DNA of 40,962 bases, taken from a virus. The number at the start of each line of letters is the position of its first letter. Within the stretch, counting starts at the first letter, position 1. Position numbers and translations under genes: made by a program. The notes under the pieces were generated by a model. It saw nothing but the letters and a program-made list of their open reading frames with translations. It was not told where the DNA came from and made no database searches. The stretch lies in the IMG/VR virus record IMGVR_UViG_3300045283_000322, positions 1 to 40,962 of that record. One strand, 5' to 3'. Positions 1-40,962 of this stretch are shown one piece after another.

Positions 1-131
1 GGCCCAGGCGGCGGCCCTGGCGGCGTCCGTGGCGGCGGCCGTGGCGGCGGCCCAGGCGGCGGCCCTGGCGGCGGCCCAGGCGGCGGCCCAGGCGGCGTCC
101 GTGGCGGCGGCCCTGGCGGCGGCCCTGGCGG
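1..131. repeat. 12-bp tandem repeat array; terminal overlap of the assembly
   Basis: Variants of GGCGGCGGCCCA/GGCGGCGGCCCT, with scattered GCGTCC units, are repeated head to tail. Bases 1-127 are identical to 40836-40962, where the array continues from about 40802. The repeat encodes the Ala-rich tail of the DUF7666-like protein on the minus strand. The 12-bp unit keeps the frame when copy number changes. Confidence 0.9.
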
Positions 132-576
132 CGGCGGCCCTGATCTCTTCGTCGCCGGTCTCCAGGTACTGCCGCACGATGGGCGGCATCTCCCAGAGGT
201 GCGCGACCGACAGTGCGACCTCGCGGGCGAAGATTCGCAGGACGTCGTCGCAGGGGACGGTGGCGATGATGCGCCGACGGCGACACACAATCTTGTCCGT
301 CTCCACCGCCTCGACGCCGTCGACCTCGACGAGACAGACGACGCCGCCCTCCCATCCGAGGTAATCCAGGGCGTCGATGGCCCGCCGGCTGGCGTGCAGG
401 CCGGACTGGCAGGCGACGATAGGGCCCTCGTGCTCCAGCCACTCACCGATGGGCGGCGCGGACGTCTTCCCGTCGCGGAGCACCGGAACGCCGTCGACGA
501 CGCGCAGGAAGTGCCACGCGCGCTCCGTGGTCTCGGCGTAGTACGACGGAGCCGGAAGCCCTGCGCCGCGAATCAC
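1..576 (-). CDS. DUF7666-like phage protein with Ala-rich repeats, N-terminal part (continues at 40749-40962)
   Basis: This is the 5' part of a gene that crosses the join of the circular genome; the full protein is 220 aa. The GTG start at 576 overlaps the stop of the preceding gene (GTGA) and follows a GGAGGTG ribosome binding site. Residues 1-145 form a compact domain with features of the phage family annotated DUF7666: an IGEWLEHEGPIVACQSGLHA segment, then a beta-rich stretch and a LETGDE segment. The rest is a four-residue repeat, one Arg, Trp or Thr followed by three Ala with an occasional Asp, encoded by a 12-bp DNA repeat. Family members are common in phages and have no established function that I know. 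The family name is from memory. The reading frame is continuous across the join. Confidence 0.75.
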   Translation of the reverse strand, partial: MIRGAGLPAPSYYAETTERAWHFLRVVDGVPVLRDGKTSAPPIGEWLEHEGPIVACQSGLHASRRAIDALDYLGWEGGVVCLVEVDGVEAVETDKIVCRRRRIIATVPCDDVLRIFAREVALSVAHLWEMPPIVRQYLETGDEEIRAAAARAAARAAATDAAWAAAWAAARAAAWAAATAAATDAARAAAWA

Positions 577-7060: not shown

Positions 7061-7079
7061 GTCGCCCTCCATGACGTCA

Positions 7080-7108
7080 ACACTACGGCTACTGTAGACT
7101 TCGGTCAA
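7080..7108 (-). promoter_or_regulatory. Early promoter with operator in its spacer
   Basis: TTGACC (7103-7108) and TAGTGT (7080-7085) are separated by exactly 17 bp, a sigma-70-type pair reading into the early operon. The spacer contains the palindromic operator at 7087-7099. Repressor binding there would block transcription of 6857-2577. Confidence 0.65.
7087..7099. promoter_or_regulatory. Operator 1, GGCTACTGTAGAC
   Basis: Near-palindrome built on CTAC-N-GTAG. The 9-mer CTACTGTAG recurs at 7388-7396 in the repressor promoter. Both sites lie between or on promoter boxes on either side of the repressor gene, as expected for the binding site of the phage repressor. Confidence 0.6.
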
Positions 7109-7145
7109 CACAAAAATCGCCAGTGTCACGCAATGGCGCGAATCC

Positions 7146-7562
7146 CTAGCGCTTCCAGCGGGTCGCGGGGAAGCCGGTCAGCTTCTCGAATGCCTCGGCC
7201 AGTGGCACGGGGCAGGGGCGCTTTCCTCGGAAAATCTTCGAGAGAAAGCCCGGGTCCACGTCGAGCTTCGCCGCCACGGCCCGCAGTGATGGCAGGCCCG
7301 CCTTACGCGCCGCCCGCATCGGGGCGCTGTCGTTGAGGTCACGGCTCGTGCTCAGGGCCTCCCGGTGCGAATCGGTCATCACGGAGTCTACTGTAGGCGC
7401 ACGACTGGGGGATTTCAAGCCGTCCTGCTTCGCGGCCACAGCGCGATACCCCTCGGCGAGCGCGCTCAGCCGAGCGGCGCCGTCGATGTCACCCGACTCA
7501 GCGAGGGCGAGGGCGCGCGCGTCGGCATCGTCGGCGAGCTGCCTCAGCTTCTGTGGCGTCAT
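7146..7562 (-). CDS. Cro/CI-type HTH repressor (likely internal start at 7379)
   Basis: The frame gives 138 aa from the ATG at 7562 and 77 aa from the ATG at 7379. The C-terminal part carries a helix-turn-helix, PSLRAVAAKLDVDPGFLSKI, followed by a short basic end. The N-terminal extension is an Ala/Leu-rich helical segment. A promoter and the second operator copy lie immediately before the 7379 ATG, with almost no leader, so the 77-aa form is probably the autoregulated repressor. The longer form could come from read-through from 8044. It would hold the early promoter shut in the lysogen. Function is inferred from HTH and operator positions. Confidence 0.7.
   Translation of the reverse strand: MTPQKLRQLADDADARALALAESGDIDGAARLSALAEGYRAVAAKQDGLKSPSRAPTVDSVMTDSHREALSTSRDLNDSAPMRAARKAGLPSLRAVAAKLDVDPGFLSKIFRGKRPCPVPLAEAFEKLTGFPATRWKR
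7386..7418 (-). promoter_or_regulatory. Repressor promoter with operator 2
   Basis: TTGAAA (7413-7418) and TACAGT (7390-7395) are 17 bp apart. The -10 box is inside the operator GTCTACTGTAGGC (7386-7398). Initiation about 7 bp downstream would fall near 7383, leaving a leader of only a few bases before the ATG at 7379. This would be a leaderless or nearly leaderless repressor message, as for lambda cI from PRM. The operator position predicts autorepression. Confidence 0.55.
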
Positions 7563-35812: not shown

Positions 35813-36200
35813 TTTCTGTCTCCTTGTTGGGTTTCACGGGATGCAGTGGAATCACGGGCGCCTCGGCTTTCTTGCGGGGGCGCTCCAGCAGGCGCAGCAC
35901 CAACTCACAGGCTCTCTTCTTGGCCTCCGCCTCGGCGAGCCAGTGCCTGGACTCGGCGAGCATGGGGTCGCTGACGATGTACTTCTCGAACCACACCACG
36001 CGCTCTTCGGAGGGCGGAAAGCTGCTGAGCAGGGAGCCGCGAAACTGACCCTGCAGCATCTCCAGGTGCTTCAGGTGCTCCAGGGCCTCGACGACCTCGC
36101 CGTGCGCCTCGGCCACCAGCCACGACCACTCCAGCAGCACGCCGATGGGGCGGGCGGTGAGGTCACGGCGGGCCTTCGCCTGGAGCTCGATTAGGGTCAC
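35706..36200 (-). CDS. Hypothetical helical protein overlapping its neighbour by 107 bp
   Basis: 164 aa from the GTG at 36200 (GTGA). Residues 1-110 are helical (PIGVLLEWSWLVAEAHGEVV; AEAEAKKRACELVLRLLERP). The last 35 residues (ENGRQEADRGDGTGGVDPGL) lie entirely over the start of the 35498 gene. No earlier stop occurs in this frame, so either the overlap is real or the original stop was lost. Not recognised. Confidence 0.55.
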   Translation of the reverse strand: MTLIELQAKARRDLTARPIGVLLEWSWLVAEAHGEVVEALEHLKHLEMLQGQFRGSLLSSFPPSEERVVWFEKYIVSDPMLAESRHWLAEAEAKKRACELVLRLLERPRKKAEAPVIPLHPVKPNKETENGRQEADRGDGTGGVDPGLAALWREAEAQGPARRG

Positions 36201-36502
36201 AGCAGTGTCCCCTGCTTCGCCTTCGTGCGCGGGCGGTCCCACCTCTTGGCCACCCGGGCAAATTGCCGGGACGCAGATTGCCGTTCGCCCTCGCTTATCG
36301 GCGGGAATGGCAACGGCTCGATCGACATGCGATCGCCGATCGCCGAGCCGTTGCCATTCCCGCGCTTCACACGTCGTTGGAGCGTATGAGCCGCCTCCTC
36401 AAAGGGCGGGTCGCAGAGGACGTGATCCACGCTTCGGTCGGGGAGCGACGCCAGGCCGCTAACCGGGTCAAGGCAGTCGCCGAGGTGCAGTTGCCAGCTC
36501 AC
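36197..36502 (-). CDS. Internally shortened DNA methylase (probably inactive)
   Basis: 101 aa from the GTG at 36502 (GTGA). QLHLGDCLDPVSGLASLPDR then DHVLCDPPFEEA with the catalytic DPPF motif, then RQFARVAKRW, matches the N-terminal third of phage site-specific DNA-adenine methylases. In that family the next segment continues V-x-x-F-C and a SAM-binding FxGxG near the end. Here KRW jumps straight to DRPRTKAKQGTLL, which looks like the family's last residues. The most likely history is an in-frame deletion of the middle, removing the SAM site. A 20-bp palindrome lies within the gene. Confidence 0.6.
   Translation of the reverse strand: MSWQLHLGDCLDPVSGLASLPDRSVDHVLCDPPFEEAAHTLQRRVKRGNGNGSAIGDRMSIEPLPFPPISEGERQSASRQFARVAKRWDRPRTKAKQGTLL
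36301..36363. repeat. 20-bp perfect inverted repeat in the methylase gene
   Basis: GCGGGAATGGCAACGGCTCG at 36301-36320 is the exact reverse complement of 36344-36363, with a 23-bp spacer that itself contains GATCG repeats. Pairing can extend by four more bases with a 3-nt bulge. It encodes the Gly/Asn-rich segment between the methylase motifs. Confidence 0.9.
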
Positions 36503-38124
36503 GCAGCCCTCCTTCGCCGCCAACCGGGCCCGGGCTTCCCCGCGGCCTTCCACTCGGTCACCAGCTGCCGGTAGCGGTCCAGCGGCAACGCCCACGCGCG
36601 CTCGACGTCCAGCCACTTCTCGGCGAAGGCGCGGCGCGTGTAATCGCACCAGCCGTGTTGCGCCGCCACGAACTCGCGGGCGAGCGCCTTCTTCGCCTCC
36701 TCGAAGGTCGCCGGTACCGGGACGCCCATCTCGCCCAGGCGGCGGGCCTGGCGCGGCGTCGGTGGGTCGGTGGGCAGCGGCTTCGGTGGGGCGGGCTTCT
36801 TCGGGCGACGCCGAGCGGTCGGGTCGTAGCTGCCCAGCTTCAGCTTCACCTCGGCCTTCGCCGCAGCCTCGGCGATGCGCTTGCGGGCTTCCAGCAACAT
36901 GGCCAGCGGGTCGCGGCCGCCCTGCTCCATGAGCCGTGCCGCCTTCTTGCGCTCCTTGTCGGTGAACGTCTCGGCCAGGATGGTCAGCGGCGTCTCAAGG
37001 TCGCCGGGGGCGTCGTTCAGCGCGAGGTCAATCCACAGCCCCACCGGCTTGGGAGACGCCGCGATGGCCGCCTTCCGCTCCTCGGCGGTGGCGCAGGCGT
37101 CGACGTCGGCGAGGGGGCGAAGGATGCGCCCGATGCGCTGAATCTTGACCCGCTTGCTCTTCGTCGGCGCCGCGTCGATGAGATTGCGCAGACCGCGGAA
37201 GTCGAAGCCCCGCCCGAAGACGCGGCAGTTCGCCATGAACTGCACCTCGCCGCCCTTCCAGCGCGCCACGCCCGCCCGCCGCTGGTCCTCGGGCGTCTTG
37301 CCGTCGATGGCAAGCGCGCACCCGGGGCGAATCTGGTTGAGCGCAGCGGCGGCAGCGTGGGCCGACTTCACCCCGGGTAGGCAGATGAGCGTGGCGCCTG
37401 TCCCGCAGGCGTTGAACGCGGCGGCGAGCACCGGCGCGATGACCTCGGCCATCGCCTCGTCGAGGGCCTCCTGCTCGAAGTCGCCCGTTTCCTTGCTGAC
37501 CTTGATCTTGCTGAGGTCGATGTCGCACTGGATGGGCGGGGCGCACTCCAGGCGGTTGAGCCACCCCTCGCCGATGGCGTCCACCAGGTCGAACTTGAAC
37601 GCCGTCTCGGTGAAGATTCTCTTATCCATCCCGTGCGGCGTGGCGGTGAAGCCCACAATGCGAGCGGTGAAGTACTCGAGAGGGCGCCGCACATCGGGGC
37701 CGCGAAAGCAGTCGGCCTCGTCGACAATGATTTCGTCGAACGCATCGCGGGGGAAGCGCTCCAGACGCTCTGGGCGCATGATGGACGCCGCGCTCGCCAC
37801 GACGTGCGCCGTGCCCCGAACCGACGCCCACGAGTCGCCCTGCTCCACCTCGAAGCGCTGGCCGACGAGGTCTTCGAACTCACGCTGCGCCTGGTAGACG
37901 AGGATGTTTTGCGGGGCCAGCACCAACGCGCGCTTCGCTTTGCGCACCCTCGCCGCCATCATGTGGGACTTGCCGGTGCCGGTCGCACTCACCACCAGGA
38001 CCGCCCGGTGCGACTGCAGCTCGCGGTCGATATTCGCGTCGCAGACGAGCTGATAGCCACGCATCTTCCGCGGCGGGGTGCTCACCCTGGTCACGGGCTC
38101 GAACAGGGATAGCGATGCGCTCAT
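36499..38124 (-). CDS. Superfamily 2 DNA helicase
   Basis: 541 aa from the ATG at 38124 (ATGA overlap). Motifs: Walker A SATGTGKS (46-53), motif II DEAD (135-138), motif III GFTATP (158-163), motif VI QRIGRILRP (329-337). The C-terminal 150 residues are Lys/Pro/Ala-rich, then helical. It resembles RecG/UvsW-like or DEAD-type helicases of phages that remodel replication forks and branched DNA. It is by far the largest enzyme of the accessory operon and lies between an HNH nuclease and the shortened methylase. Confidence 0.88.
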   Translation of the reverse strand: MSASLSLFEPVTRVSTPPRKMRGYQLVCDANIDRELQSHRAVLVVSATGTGKSHMMAARVRKAKRALVLAPQNILVYQAQREFEDLVGQRFEVEQGDSWASVRGTAHVVASAASIMRPERLERFPRDAFDEIIVDEADCFRGPDVRRPLEYFTARIVGFTATPHGMDKRIFTETAFKFDLVDAIGEGWLNRLECAPPIQCDIDLSKIKVSKETGDFEQEALDEAMAEVIAPVLAAAFNACGTGATLICLPGVKSAHAAAAALNQIRPGCALAIDGKTPEDQRRAGVARWKGGEVQFMANCRVFGRGFDFRGLRNLIDAAPTKSKRVKIQRIGRILRPLADVDACATAEERKAAIAASPKPVGLWIDLALNDAPGDLETPLTILAETFTDKERKKAARLMEQGGRDPLAMLLEARKRIAEAAAKAEVKLKLGSYDPTARRRPKKPAPPKPLPTDPPTPRQARRLGEMGVPVPATFEEAKKALAREFVAAQHGWCDYTRRAFAEKWLDVERAWALPLDRYRQLVTEWKAAGKPGPGWRRRRAA

Positions 38125-38630
38125 CGCCACGTCTCCCCGCGCCTTATGAGACTTATCGTCGAAGGACTGACGCCAAATCGCGCCGCGACCTCACGGTTCA
38201 GTCCAGTCGCCGCCCTTATCTCAGCAACCTGCTCCGGGGTCAGCTTGGCCTGCCCGTGCGCGGCTCCTCGAACATTCACGCGCCTGCCCTTCAGCTTGCA
38301 GTCGATCGTATTGTCGAGCCGGCTTCCTTCGAAGAGATGAGCGGGGTTGCAGCACGGGGGATTGTCGCAGCGGTGGCAGGCTTCCATGCGGGAGCCCGGT
38401 GGGCGTCCGAGAGAAAGCTCCAGCGCCACGCGGTTCGATCGGACGTTCTTGCCGTCGGCCCAGAACTGGCCATACCCCTTCGGCGAGCGGAATTGACGCC
38501 AGGGCCAGCAGGCGTCGGGGCCCGCGCTGCGATCGACCTTCGACCAGAAGCGCTCCTCCCACGCCGGCCTGGGGCGCTTCGCTGCAACCAGCGCCGGGGC
38601 CAGCGGCTCGAAGAGCGGCAGCTGGAGCAT
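38121..38630 (-). CDS. HNH endonuclease with C-terminal HTH
   Basis: 169 aa from the ATG at 38630 (TGATG). Residues 25-65 form a strand-rich N-terminal part (ERFWSKVDRSAGPDACWPWR). HNH motif: MEACHRCDNPPCCNPAHLFE, with His86, Asn95 and His98. A C-terminal helix-turn-helix (LTPEQVAEIRAATGLNREVA; FGVSPSTISLIRRG) is typical of homing HNH enzymes. The first 18 residues (MLQLPLFEPLAPALVAAK) are encoded by a 54-bp sequence repeated at 39166-39219. It could act in homing or in packaging. Confidence 0.88.
   Translation of the reverse strand: MLQLPLFEPLAPALVAAKRPRPAWEERFWSKVDRSAGPDACWPWRQFRSPKGYGQFWADGKNVRSNRVALELSLGRPPGSRMEACHRCDNPPCCNPAHLFEGSRLDNTIDCKLKGRRVNVRGAAHGQAKLTPEQVAEIRAATGLNREVAARFGVSPSTISLIRRGETWR
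38577..38630. repeat. Direct repeat A, copy 1
   Basis: 54 bp identical to 39166-39219. It encodes the first 18 residues of the HNH protein here and of the 41-aa chimera there. Confidence 0.92.
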
Positions 38631-39097
38631 CAGAATGGCCACCCCACGCCGGCCCTGCCAAACGGCTTGTGCAGCAGGGTCTTCTTGTCATCAGCGCTGC
38701 GGCCGATAGCGCGCCATCCGGCCTTCTTGAAGCAGCATCCCGGGTTGGCGCTCTTGACCTTCTTGTCCCAGACGTAGGTCAGCATTCCGTCGGGCCCGCA
38801 GCCCATCCCAGAGAGCTTCAGGTGCTCTTCGGCCACCAGGATCAAAAGCGACGAGAGGTGCTCGCTCTCGTTTCGGAAGATGGTGCAGGTCCACCCGTCG
38901 AGGTTGTTCATCGCGCGGATGCCGCTCGACGGGTGGGGACGCCACCAGCCGAAGACCACGTCGCCCTCGTTGCTGCGAAGGACGAGTGTCTGTCCCGGGG
39001 GCATGAACTGCGGCGACCCGACCGTGCGCCTCGAATAGTGGCGGTCAGCGAGCGCGGCGCCCTGCGGGTCGAACTTGGTGACTACCTCCAGGTTCAC
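38630..39097 (-). CDS. Mom/GNAT-like protein, candidate DNA-modification enzyme
   Basis: 155 aa from the GTG at 39097 (GTGA). LADRHYSRRTVGSPQFMPPG at residues 17-36 and a C-terminal SANPGCCFKKAGWRAIGRSA match the layout of GNAT-fold phage proteins, including Mom-like ones (N-terminal HYS motif, late KKAGW). Between them are a beta-rich VVFGWWRPHP and a helix, EHLSSLLILVAEEHL. Mu Mom modifies adenines and protects phage DNA from restriction. Here the relationship is by eye and the substrate is unknown. The gene sits between repeat B and repeat A, next to the PAPS-reductase-like gene. Confidence 0.55.
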   Translation of the reverse strand: MNLEVVTKFDPQGAALADRHYSRRTVGSPQFMPPGQTLVLRSNEGDVVFGWWRPHPSSGIRAMNNLDGWTCTIFRNESEHLSSLLILVAEEHLKLSGMGCGPDGMLTYVWDKKVKSANPGCCFKKAGWRAIGRSADDKKTLLHKPFGRAGVGWPF

Positions 39098-39162
39098 GCC
39101 GCCTCCGCGTGCTCGTCGATGTCCTCCATCTGCCGCCTCGCCTCGGCACAGCGGTTCTCCAC
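39094..39162. repeat. Direct repeat B, copy 1
   Basis: 69 bp identical to 40092-40160. Encodes the last 22 residues of the chimeric small protein (ending DIDEHAEAA) and includes its stop codon. Confidence 0.92.
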
Positions 39163-39219
39163 GGCCTTCGCTGCAACCAGCGCCGGGGCCAGCGGCTCGA
39201 AGAGCGGCAGCTGGAGCAT
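39094..39219 (-). CDS. 41-aa chimeric miniprotein made of repeats A and B
   Basis: 41 aa, ATG at 39219 directly after the upstream stop, stop overlapping the next GTG. The first 18 residues equal the start of the HNH protein and the last 22-23 equal the end of the 53-aa protein at 40092. Three bases (GGC, 39163-39165, on the plus strand) join the 54-bp and 69-bp repeats. It is therefore a recombination scar that still reads as a gene. It probably has no function of its own but keeps the operon coupled. Confidence 0.6.
   Translation of the reverse strand: MLQLPLFEPLAPALVAAKAVENRCAEARRQMEDIDEHAEAA
39166..39219. repeat. Direct repeat A, copy 2
   Basis: 54 bp identical to 38577-38630; forms the 5' end of the chimeric miniprotein gene. 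Confidence 0.92.
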
Positions 39220-40095
39220 CTACGCCTCGCTCCCGTTGGTGTCGCAAAGGCCCCAGCGCATGCACCCTTCCTCGCCCGGGCCGGCGGCGAAGAGCTCATA
39301 CTGACGCCCCCCGTGGGCAGTGCGGGACCACTTGATGACCTCGTCGATCGGAGTGCCGGGCCGGGCACCATCGGCATTGCGCATCGGCGCCTGGAAGAAC
39401 GTGGGCGGGTTGCGAACGGCCTCGCCGCGGGACTCGGCGCGGGCGGCGCTGGCCTCCTGAGCCTCGGCCTCTAACTGACGAATGACAGCGATACGAGCCG
39501 GATCCGTCTCCGCCAAGTGCCGAATCTCTGCCTTGCGTGCGAACAGACAGGGCCAGCACCCCACGCGAGTCGCGCCCTCCAAGTAGAGCGGGTTGGGCGC
39601 CAGGCCGTGACGGTGGTGAATGGCGATGACCTCGTCCTCGGTCCAGTGGATGAGCGGCCTCCATGTCTCCGCGTCAAATCCGTTCGACCACTCCCATTCC
39701 TCCATCCGCGATCGAGCCTCGGACTCGGCCCGCCGGATCCCTACAGCGTTGACCACGTCGGCCCCCAGCCCGGCGAGGTACCGCTGCATCGGCTTCACCT
39801 TCAACTCCTCGGTGCAGAACCGCCTGGTCCTCGATGGGAACATGCCTTTCTTGCGGATGAGGTCCGGCATGAGCAGGTCGCCCCGAATCTCGGTGATCGG
39901 CCCGAGGACCCGGGTGAGTTCGCCGCGCAGGTAGTCGTAGGTCTTCGCATGCTCCCAACCGGTGTCCATGAAGACGCGGTCGTGCTCGATGCCCAGTTCC
40001 CGCAGGTGCAAGGACATGGCTGCGCTGTCCTTGCCACCGCTGATGGAGGCCACCACATGCCGGCCGGCCAGCTTTTTTTCCAGAGCAGCGATCAC
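39220..40095 (-). CDS. PAPS-reductase-like PP-loop protein
   Basis: 291 aa from the GTG at 40095 (GTGA). PP-loop SGGKDS at residues 19-24, FMDTGWEH, TRRFCTEELKVKPMQRYL (Cys94) and CWPCLFARKAE (Cys180, Cys183) are features of the phosphoadenosine-phosphosulfate reductase/DndC-type family. Phage members are widespread and may act on DNA or nucleotides rather than sulfate. It is directly followed by the chimeric scar and the Mom/GNAT-like gene, so a joint role in DNA modification is plausible. Confidence 0.8.
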   Translation of the reverse strand: MIAALEKKLAGRHVVASISGGKDSAAMSLHLRELGIEHDRVFMDTGWEHAKTYDYLRGELTRVLGPITEIRGDLLMPDLIRKKGMFPSRTRRFCTEELKVKPMQRYLAGLGADVVNAVGIRRAESEARSRMEEWEWSNGFDAETWRPLIHWTEDEVIAIHHRHGLAPNPLYLEGATRVGCWPCLFARKAEIRHLAETDPARIAVIRQLEAEAQEASAARAESRGEAVRNPPTFFQAPMRNADGARPGTPIDEVIKWSRTAHGGRQYELFAAGPGEEGCMRWGLCDTNGSEA

Positions 40096-40160
40096 GCCGC
40101 CTCCGCGTGCTCGTCGATGTCCTCCATCTGCCGCCTCGCCTCGGCACAGCGGTTCTCCAC
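40092..40160. repeat. Direct repeat B, copy 2
   Basis: 69 bp identical to 39094-39162; forms the 3' end of the 53-aa gene at 40092. Confidence 0.92.
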
Positions 40161-40253
40161 CGCCTCGAAGCGCCCCAGAACCTCGGAGTGCCGCCGGTAG
40201 ATGGCCTCGATGTCGGTGAGCAGCTCGGCGAGCAAGTCGCGGTAGGTGGTCAC
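40092..40253 (-). CDS. Small coiled-coil protein
   Basis: 53 aa from the GTG at 40253 (GTGA). Entirely helical with heptad spacing (YRDLLAELLTDIEAIYRRHS; then VENRCAEARRQMEDIDEHAE). Its C-terminal 22 residues are duplicated in the 41-aa chimera. Not recognised. Confidence 0.65.
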   Translation of the reverse strand: MTTYRDLLAELLTDIEAIYRRHSEVLGRFEAVENRCAEARRQMEDIDEHAEAA

Positions 40254-40558: not shown

Positions 40559-40752
40559 CGTGCCGCCTCCAGGTTCCCGCACGTCGTCGAGTTGTGTCCC
40601 GCCCGCCCGCACCGGCCGCAGCCCCGCCGATTGCTGCCGTAGGGCCGCTGGCGCTGCATCTCCAGCAGCGCCTCGGTGTACTCGGTGGACGCCTCGCCGT
40701 GGTTGATGCGCGCCCAGAAGGCGGCGACGCAGGCCCGTTGGAAGGGCGTCAC
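40555..40752 (-). CDS. Zinc knuckle protein
   Basis: 65 aa from the GTG at 40752 (GTGA overlap with the DUF7666-like gene). The C-terminal CGRCGRAGHNSTTC is a classical CCHC zinc knuckle (Cys45, Cys48, His53, Cys58), which binds single-stranded nucleic acid. Residues 1-35 are helical. CCHC knuckles are typical of retroviral Gag and eukaryotic RNA-binding proteins, less often of phages. It could be an RNA-binding regulator or a DNA-replication accessory. Confidence 0.72.
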   Translation of the reverse strand: MTPFQRACVAAFWARINHGEASTEYTEALLEMQRQRPYGSNRRGCGRCGRAGHNSTTCGNLEAAR

Positions 40753-40962
40753 AGGTCCATCTCCCCGAGCAGCAGCGACTCCAGCAGGGCGTTCTGATCG
40801 TCCGTGGCGGCGGCCCAGGCGGCGGCCCTGGCGGCGGCCCAGGCGGCGGCCCTGGCGGCGTCCGTGGCGGCGGCCGTGGCGGCGGCCCAGGCGGCGGCCC
40901 TGGCGGCGGCCCAGGCGGCGGCCCAGGCGGCGTCCGTGGCGGCGGCCCTGGCGGCGGCCCTG
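40749..40962 (-). CDS. DUF7666-like phage protein, C-terminal part (continues from 1-576)
   Basis: This is the 3' part of the gene that starts at 576. Bases 40836-40962 duplicate 1-127, so only 40749-40835 add new sequence, and the frame joins exactly. The Ala-rich repeat runs to about 40801 and is followed by an acidic, Leu-rich tail ending GEMDL. The stop TGA overlaps the GTG of the next gene (GTGA). The number of 12-bp repeats may be wrong, because the assembly was closed inside them. Confidence 0.75.
   Translation of the reverse strand, partial: RAAARAAATDAAWAAAWAAARAAAWAAATAAATDAARAAAWAAARAAAWAAATDDQNALLESLLLGEMDL
40802..40962. repeat. 12-bp tandem repeat array, right-hand end
   Basis: Same array as at 1-131. 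Its last 127 bp duplicate the start of the window exactly, which shows that the molecule is circular or permuted, about 40,835 bp long. Confidence 0.9.

Follow-up and report, generated by a model that had tools for sequence, protein, structure and literature searches.

The window analysed here, the whole 40,962 bases of a metagenomic contig from an uncultured phage, carries two accessory genes stacked in one slot, each bordered by the same two repeats. The first gene codes for a PAPS reductase-like (PAPSr-like) PP-loop protein, the second for a Mom-like protein with a GNAT fold. They probably represent two cassettes of a single slot, located between a small gene X and an HNH endonuclease gene, that were joined by out-of-register illegitimate recombination. 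Each cassette has the order repeat B, cargo gene, repeat A.

Layout of the slot

All genes of the slot are located on the minus strand. They are transcribed in the order gene X, PAPSr-like gene, 41-codon ORF, Mom-like gene, HNH gene and helicase gene. Written with its repeats, the slot reads X·B – PP-loop gene – A·B 41-aa ORF – GNAT/Mom-like gene – A·HNH. The individual features are the following:

40092-40253 (-): gene X, small predicted coiled-coil-like protein, 53 aa (ORF reading)
40092-40160 (-): first copy of repeat B, in its native place where gene X ends (exact repeat search)
39220-40095 (-): cargo gene 1, PP-loop 'PAPS reductase-like' protein, 291 aa (PF01507, PADLOC SspD, CysH-like fold)
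39094-39219 (-): A·B fusion mini-ORF, 41 aa (ORF reading; parallel 14-aa mini-ORF at L013:6719-6763)
39166-39220 (-): first copy of repeat A, where the 41-aa ORF begins (exact repeat search)
39163-39165 (-): GCC, the three bases at the joint of A and B (repeat comparison)
39094-39162 (-): second copy of repeat B, where the 41-aa ORF ends, with GTGA into the Mom-like gene
38630-39097 (-): cargo gene 2, GNAT-fold Mom-like protein, 155 aa, phrog_24928 (phrog match, model)
38577-38631 (-): second copy of repeat A, in its native place where the HNH gene begins, MLQLPLFEPLAPALVAAK
38121-38630 (-): HNH endonuclease with C-terminal HTH, 169 aa (PF13392, 1.4e-5; phrog_1872, 1.7e-31)
36499-38130 (-): helicase gene, the next gene after HNH

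The GTG start of gene X at 40253 overlaps the preceding TGA, and its frame is open up to 40364. No family match was found for gene X in Pfam or phrog, and no relative in viral_contigs. Near relatives of the phage were also sought in viral_contigs with terL, the helicase, gene X and the exact A pattern, and in the phages collection with terL and the portal; neither these searches nor the DNA comparison with phages and plasmids returned any.

Just downstream of the helicase, an apparently truncated DNA methyltransferase fragment is present (36197-36649, minus strand; phrog_6025, 1.4e-6), with ~37 residues matched around DHVLCDPPF. It is possibly the remnant of a modification gene that has decayed. 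Both ends of the contig carry a direct terminal repeat of 127 bp, located within a 12-bp GC-rich array coding for [R/T/W]AAA repeats (window 1-576 and 40749-40962). One ORF appears to continue across these ends, and the genome is therefore probably circularly closed.

Repeats at the gene borders

The two copies of repeat A are identical over 55/55 positions, those of repeat B over 69/69 (73/74 when extended past one mismatch). Besides the Ala-coding 12-bp array and the 127-bp terminal repeat, A and B are the only exact repeats of at least 20 bp in the genome. For comparison, 141 loci were fetched (1.44 Mb, with the window counted as L001). Exact direct repeats of at least 24 bp with a spacing of 150-3000 bp occur in ~6 independent loci of this set besides the window, and none of them exceeds 31 bp.

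Repeat B consists of the last 23 codons of gene X (stop included). It contains a GGAGG ribosome-binding site just ahead of the GTG start, and it ends precisely on the GTGA overlap of the stop (TGA) and the next start (GTG). Consecutive genes upstream of the slot are joined by the same GTGA overlap (40749/40752, 40555/40558 and 40250/40253), so the end of B is the native linker of the operon. Repeat A covers codons 1-18 of the HNH gene together with the one base preceding its ATG. Since B ends at GTGA and A begins one base before ATG, the cargo borders fall exactly on start and stop codons. Both cargo ORFs start and end at these borders, and A and B lie outside the cargo proteins. A is confined to the HNH gene and the mini-ORF, and B to gene X and the mini-ORF.

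It had been noted earlier that both genes are flanked by B on the 5' side and A on the 3' side. This is borne out, as the coordinates hold and the order is the same both times. The length of 54 bp given for A was confirmed and extended by the one base before the ATG to 55. The earlier note had also considered that A and B might be ordinary conserved parts unrelated to the two genes, which proved half true: they are the ends of neighbouring genes, not free repeats.

The joint and the 41-codon ORF

The ORF between the two cargo genes had been described as made of A plus three bases plus B. This composition is exact: on the minus strand from 39219 to 39094, 54 + 3 + 69 nucleotides give the full 126. 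The ORF thus combines the HNH start, GCC and the end of gene X in one frame. Its A/B junction is the only new sequence joint in the slot, with 2 bp (AG) in common. Reading across it gives GCG AAG / GCC GTG GAG, and the frame is kept. The sole difference between the B copies is located here: GCC at the junction versus GCG in gene X, both coding for Ala.

The 41-codon ORF most likely acts as a translational relay, handing ribosomes over from the stop codon of PAPSr to the start codon of Mom. In another phage locus, L013, an analogous ORF of 14 codons has a different sequence, which argues by analogy that the relay would be weightier than the peptide sequence of the mini-ORF.

The HNH gene and the A peptide

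The conserved body of the HNH protein begins at ~residue 25, downstream of A. None of the fetched HNH homologues contains the A peptide, and their similarity also starts at ~residue 25. A was therefore rejected as part of the HNH fold. In other phages, no HNH homologue was found adjoining a Mom or PAPSr homologue.

Residues 3-7 of both the HNH and the mini-ORF protein read QLPLF. The bacterial beta-clamp-binding consensus is QL(S/D)LF (PMC9690074). In the whole viral_contigs collection, the pattern MxQLPLFEP occurs in 2 places only, both at the N-terminus of a long phage protein. These two proteins (L137:871 and L138:7457, minus strand) start with M[L/I]QLPLFEPP, nearly the same as the A peptide. 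By look, they resemble Pol I-type DNA polymerases, and their N-terminus is likely a clamp-binding tag. The N-terminus of the window helicase is similar as well (MSASLSLFEPV). Judging from these sequence motifs, A may be a putative replisome-tethering tag fused to the HNH body.

The cargo genes

The PAPSr-like protein contains the PP-loop domain PF01507 (Pfam, 1.3e-24). Its best PADLOC model is SspD of DNA phosphorothioation (3.4e-27), and its structure model (pLDDT 86) matches CysH-type structures (1sur, 7.5e-10). The GTG start of the gene overlaps the stop of gene X (GTGA). With the SspD/DndC ATP pyrophosphatases the window protein shares the PP-loop SGGKDS, the invariant cysteines and the PAPS_reduct domain. 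In contrast to them, it is encoded by a lone phage gene, as far as the PADLOC scan of the slot neighbours extends. About half of the PAPSr family carries Q-x-E/K-L-F near the C-terminus, in a stretch that is predicted to be disordered in the window protein (residues 263-277). This could be another clamp-binding motif. The excess of QxxLF in the family (8/18 sequences against a shuffled mean of 0.36) was attributed to homologous inheritance and discarded as independent evidence.

The Mom-like gene starts with a GTG that overlaps the stop of the mini-ORF. Its product matches no Pfam and no NCBIfam family and falls in phrog_24928 (1.4e-35). The structure model (pLDDT 90.9) has a GNAT fold, and its top PDB matches are GNATs. 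The best of these is an aminoglycoside 6'-acetyltransferase (4.6e-4), while the structure of phage Mu Mom (8bv8) ranks fifth (E 6.4e-3). Membership of the Pfam family of Mom (PF25680) was ruled out, as the window protein stays below the model cut-off; Mu Mom itself scores 2.4e-75. The GNAT fold and a local HYSRR motif, invariant or nearly so in the Mom-like family, are common to the window protein and Mu Mom. The sequence match to Mu Mom consists of HYSRR alone, and the label 'Mom-like' is therefore a statement at the level of the predicted fold.

The two cargo genes are unrelated (PP-loop versus GNAT), and they do not behave as a pair. A PF01507 gene is present in 2/24 other records of the Mom-homologue set and in none of their fetched loci within 6 kb around Mom; conversely, the Mom family occurs in 0/19 other PAPSr phages. 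Many of the Mom and PAPSr records are fragments, and these absence counts are a lower bound. A functional pairing was rejected on these grounds, namely that both genes rarely occur in one record and never within 6 kb in the fetched loci. As they are so rarely found in one phage, Mom and PAPSr are independent cargo, and a tight pairing is excluded. Both cargo proteins are plausibly DNA modifiers, and they would have an anti-restriction (DNA-modification) role.

Parallels in other phages

Similar border repeats can be observed in other phages. L013 and L015 are related Mom phages with ~82% identity over their shared DNA. In L015, gene1 (protein end KIRGLV) passes by a TGATG overlap directly to gene4 (MVGSLHLTDENV). 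In L013, gene1 (protein end RIRGLV) is linked by TGATG to an extra gene of 249 aa, a Mom by Pfam (PF25680, 1.3e-17). This gene is in turn linked by TGATG to the 14-codon ORF, MVGARLWRRIRGLV followed by a stop (MVG+ARLWRRIRGLV), which is in frame. This ORF ends with 26 bp that match the end of gene1 exactly, and it starts with the same 11 bp as gene4 (TGATGGTCGGC). From the ORF, GTGA leads to a 48-aa gene3, followed by a further small ORF and gene4 (MVGSEHLTEENV). The B part of this parallel is solid; the A part is short, with only 11 bp compared to the window.

L013 also contains an extra radical-SAM-like gene (275 aa) directly 5' of its phrog_24928 gene. It starts at the ATG position that is used by the phrog_24928 gene itself in L015. 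The comparison of L013:3417-6983 with L015:5500-7709 thus displays two separate single-gene gains beside Mom in L013: the radical-SAM-like gene at the Mom 5' border, and the PF25680 Mom with the mini-ORF repeat after the next gene.

The second pair concerns PAPSr. In L049, PAPSr is joined by an ATGA overlap to a small gene starting MNIYDEPQG (7077-7300). In L047 (2713-3560), a DNA methyltransferase (PF01555, 2.2e-38) is inserted between the two. Its first 13 codons copy the start of the small gene (38/40 bp), and the small gene retains its own start. Compared to the window, A is duplicated here and B is single. In-frame fusions are found in the window, L013 and L047.

Shorter repeats are present at further borders. 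L003 has one 29-bp stop/start junction twice, at the 3' end of Mom and again at that of the next gene. Mom is flanked there (L003:5534-6967) by two proteins that begin alike and contain coiled-coil-like stretches. Three successive genes of L003 end with the tail AGTPSE(D/A)T, and ATGAGCGGC comes after two of them. In L045 (6875-8148), a 21-bp sequence of ribosome-binding site plus start occurs at the border of PAPSr and the next gene and again two genes on. PAPSr precedes a two-gene block in L045 and follows that block in the related L041 (4508-6870).

Repeats of at least 21 bp that touch a stop codon occur in 5/44 Mom/PAPSr loci versus 1/70 HNH loci (Fisher p 0.03). This enrichment is post hoc and weak, and it is only suggestive because the parallels emerged once the question had already been asked.

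Origin of the stack

In the favoured reading, the slot flanked by gene X and the HNH gene would accept one accessory gene at a time, with an exact fit at its start and stop codons. On arrival, such a gene would use the ribosome-binding site and the GTGA of the X end (B) and hand over to the HNH ATG (A). The donors would have been sister versions with the orders X-PAPSr-HNH and X-Mom-HNH. Between these, codon 18 of the HNH gene from one version would have been joined to a codon close to the 3' end of gene X from the other, with ~2 bp shared. The product would contain both cargo genes and the hybrid 41-codon ORF, with the HNH start in frame with the X end, and this ORF would couple translation from PAPSr to Mom. 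The adjoining HNH gene is a candidate helper of the recombination. Copies as long as those of A and B are sufficient for ordinary or phage-type homologous recombination. Recombination between the two A copies would reduce the stack to X-PAPSr-HNH (589 bp shorter), and between the two B copies to X-Mom-HNH (998 bp shorter), each time with all overlaps preserved. The stack should therefore be young or under selection.

The earlier proposal of B-gene-A cassettes joined by unequal exchange agrees with the anatomy, which fits an out-of-register join: every overlap survives and the joint is in frame. Its view of both genes as cassettes of the same slot gains from the finding that they are not an obligate pair and that boundary-repeat cassettes are present or absent in two other phage pairs. 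From this, we infer that PAPSr and Mom were alternative occupants of one slot.

The observed order is most simply obtained by a single event, an out-of-register joint between two donor phages. Against such a direct exchange, no single-occupant sister was found, and B and gene X have no relative in the searches. The 2-bp microhomology at the joint is also below the 6-10 bp typical of T4 amplifications (PMC9391042). The parallels in other phages moreover deviate from the window, with a short A in L013 and a single B in L047. Segmental duplication followed by the replacement of one gene could give the same end product. In that case, B-gene-A would have been duplicated in tandem within one lineage, through a break repaired out of register and possibly with the help of the adjacent HNH endonuclease, and one cargo would later have been replaced by homologous recombination through the B and A arms. 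In favour of this, phage T4 evades defence by amplifying segments between short homologies (PMC9391042), the homing endonuclease SegB drives the amplification of anti-defence genes (PMC13096335), and here an HNH gene abuts the slot. However, SegB is a GIY-YIG and not an HNH enzyme (PMC13096335), and the HNH body is located outside the duplicated unit. This route moreover takes two events, one more than the direct exchange, and it is considered unlikely. Rather improbable is a sequential insertion, in which a block of the A/B joint plus Mom entered ahead of A·HNH and duplicated A, without any history of alternative occupancy. It would give the same product. L047 compared to L049 does display such an A duplication, with the new gene fused to the first copy. 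The inserted block, however, carries the X end ahead of Mom, so the donor Mom was already behind an X gene, and this comes close to saying that the slot had another occupant.

It is quite improbable that the 41-aa A·B protein was itself selected and that the repeats were kept because its clamp-like N-terminus acts on the replisome. MLQLPLFEP resembles the beta-clamp consensus (PMC9690074), and its pattern in viral_contigs is restricted to the N-terminus of the two putative Pol I-type polymerases. The analogous mini-ORF of L013, however, has an unrelated 14-aa sequence, and the HNH protein begins with A as well, which accounts for the presence of A. An assembly or library artefact that merged two strain variants is given the least credence. 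The contig is metagenomic, and strain mixtures with different occupants are plausible. However, assemblers join on shared sequence. The new joint has almost none to join on (~2 bp), which makes an artefact unlikely, as the joint must then exist in the reads. The joint is in frame as well, and the contig closes on itself with the 127-bp terminal repeat and the ORF apparently across its ends.

Significance and comparison with known systems

The turnover of accessory genes at gene borders is known, and its intermediate products are rarely caught. In the window, the scar has been kept. The same logic is observed in two further phage pairs, one member of each lacking the cassette, which suggests a route for collecting DNA-modification genes. 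Tentatively, a general route can be envisaged by which phages might gain DNA-modification or anti-restriction genes: recurrent copying of the upstream neighbour's end, the downstream neighbour's start or both, together with each new gene. The copies would form in-frame relay ORFs or N-terminal leaders that keep the overlapping operon translated, and they would leave arms for the loss or swapping of cargo. Stop/start-bounded repeats together with hybrid mini-ORFs provide a searchable signature for exchangeable modification slots and newly acquired counter-defence candidates.

The start-associated sequences of cluster K mycobacteriophages (PMC3203893) are reportedly repeated at gene starts as well, translation start region included. 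In contrast, A and B are the coding ends of two neighbours, in two copies each, and not a dispersed regulatory motif.

Phage T4 amplifies anti-defence loci (tifA) by recombination at short homologies (PMC9391042), which SegB can drive (PMC13096335). The window likewise displays tandem units of a short, putative anti-defence region with borders in the flanking sequence, and instability is expected in both cases. Here, however, the units are not identical but differ in their cargo, and the homology at the joint is 2 bp.

Another close known system is the mosaicism of phage genomes by illegitimate or relaxed recombination at gene boundaries (PMC8136500, PMC2327257, PMC3945230). As there, the joints in the window are located at gene borders, the units are gene-sized, the operon runs on one strand and no insertion element is involved. 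Compared to such mosaicism, the window differs in that the ends of the flanking genes have been duplicated and fused in frame, and the cargo has been stacked rather than swapped.
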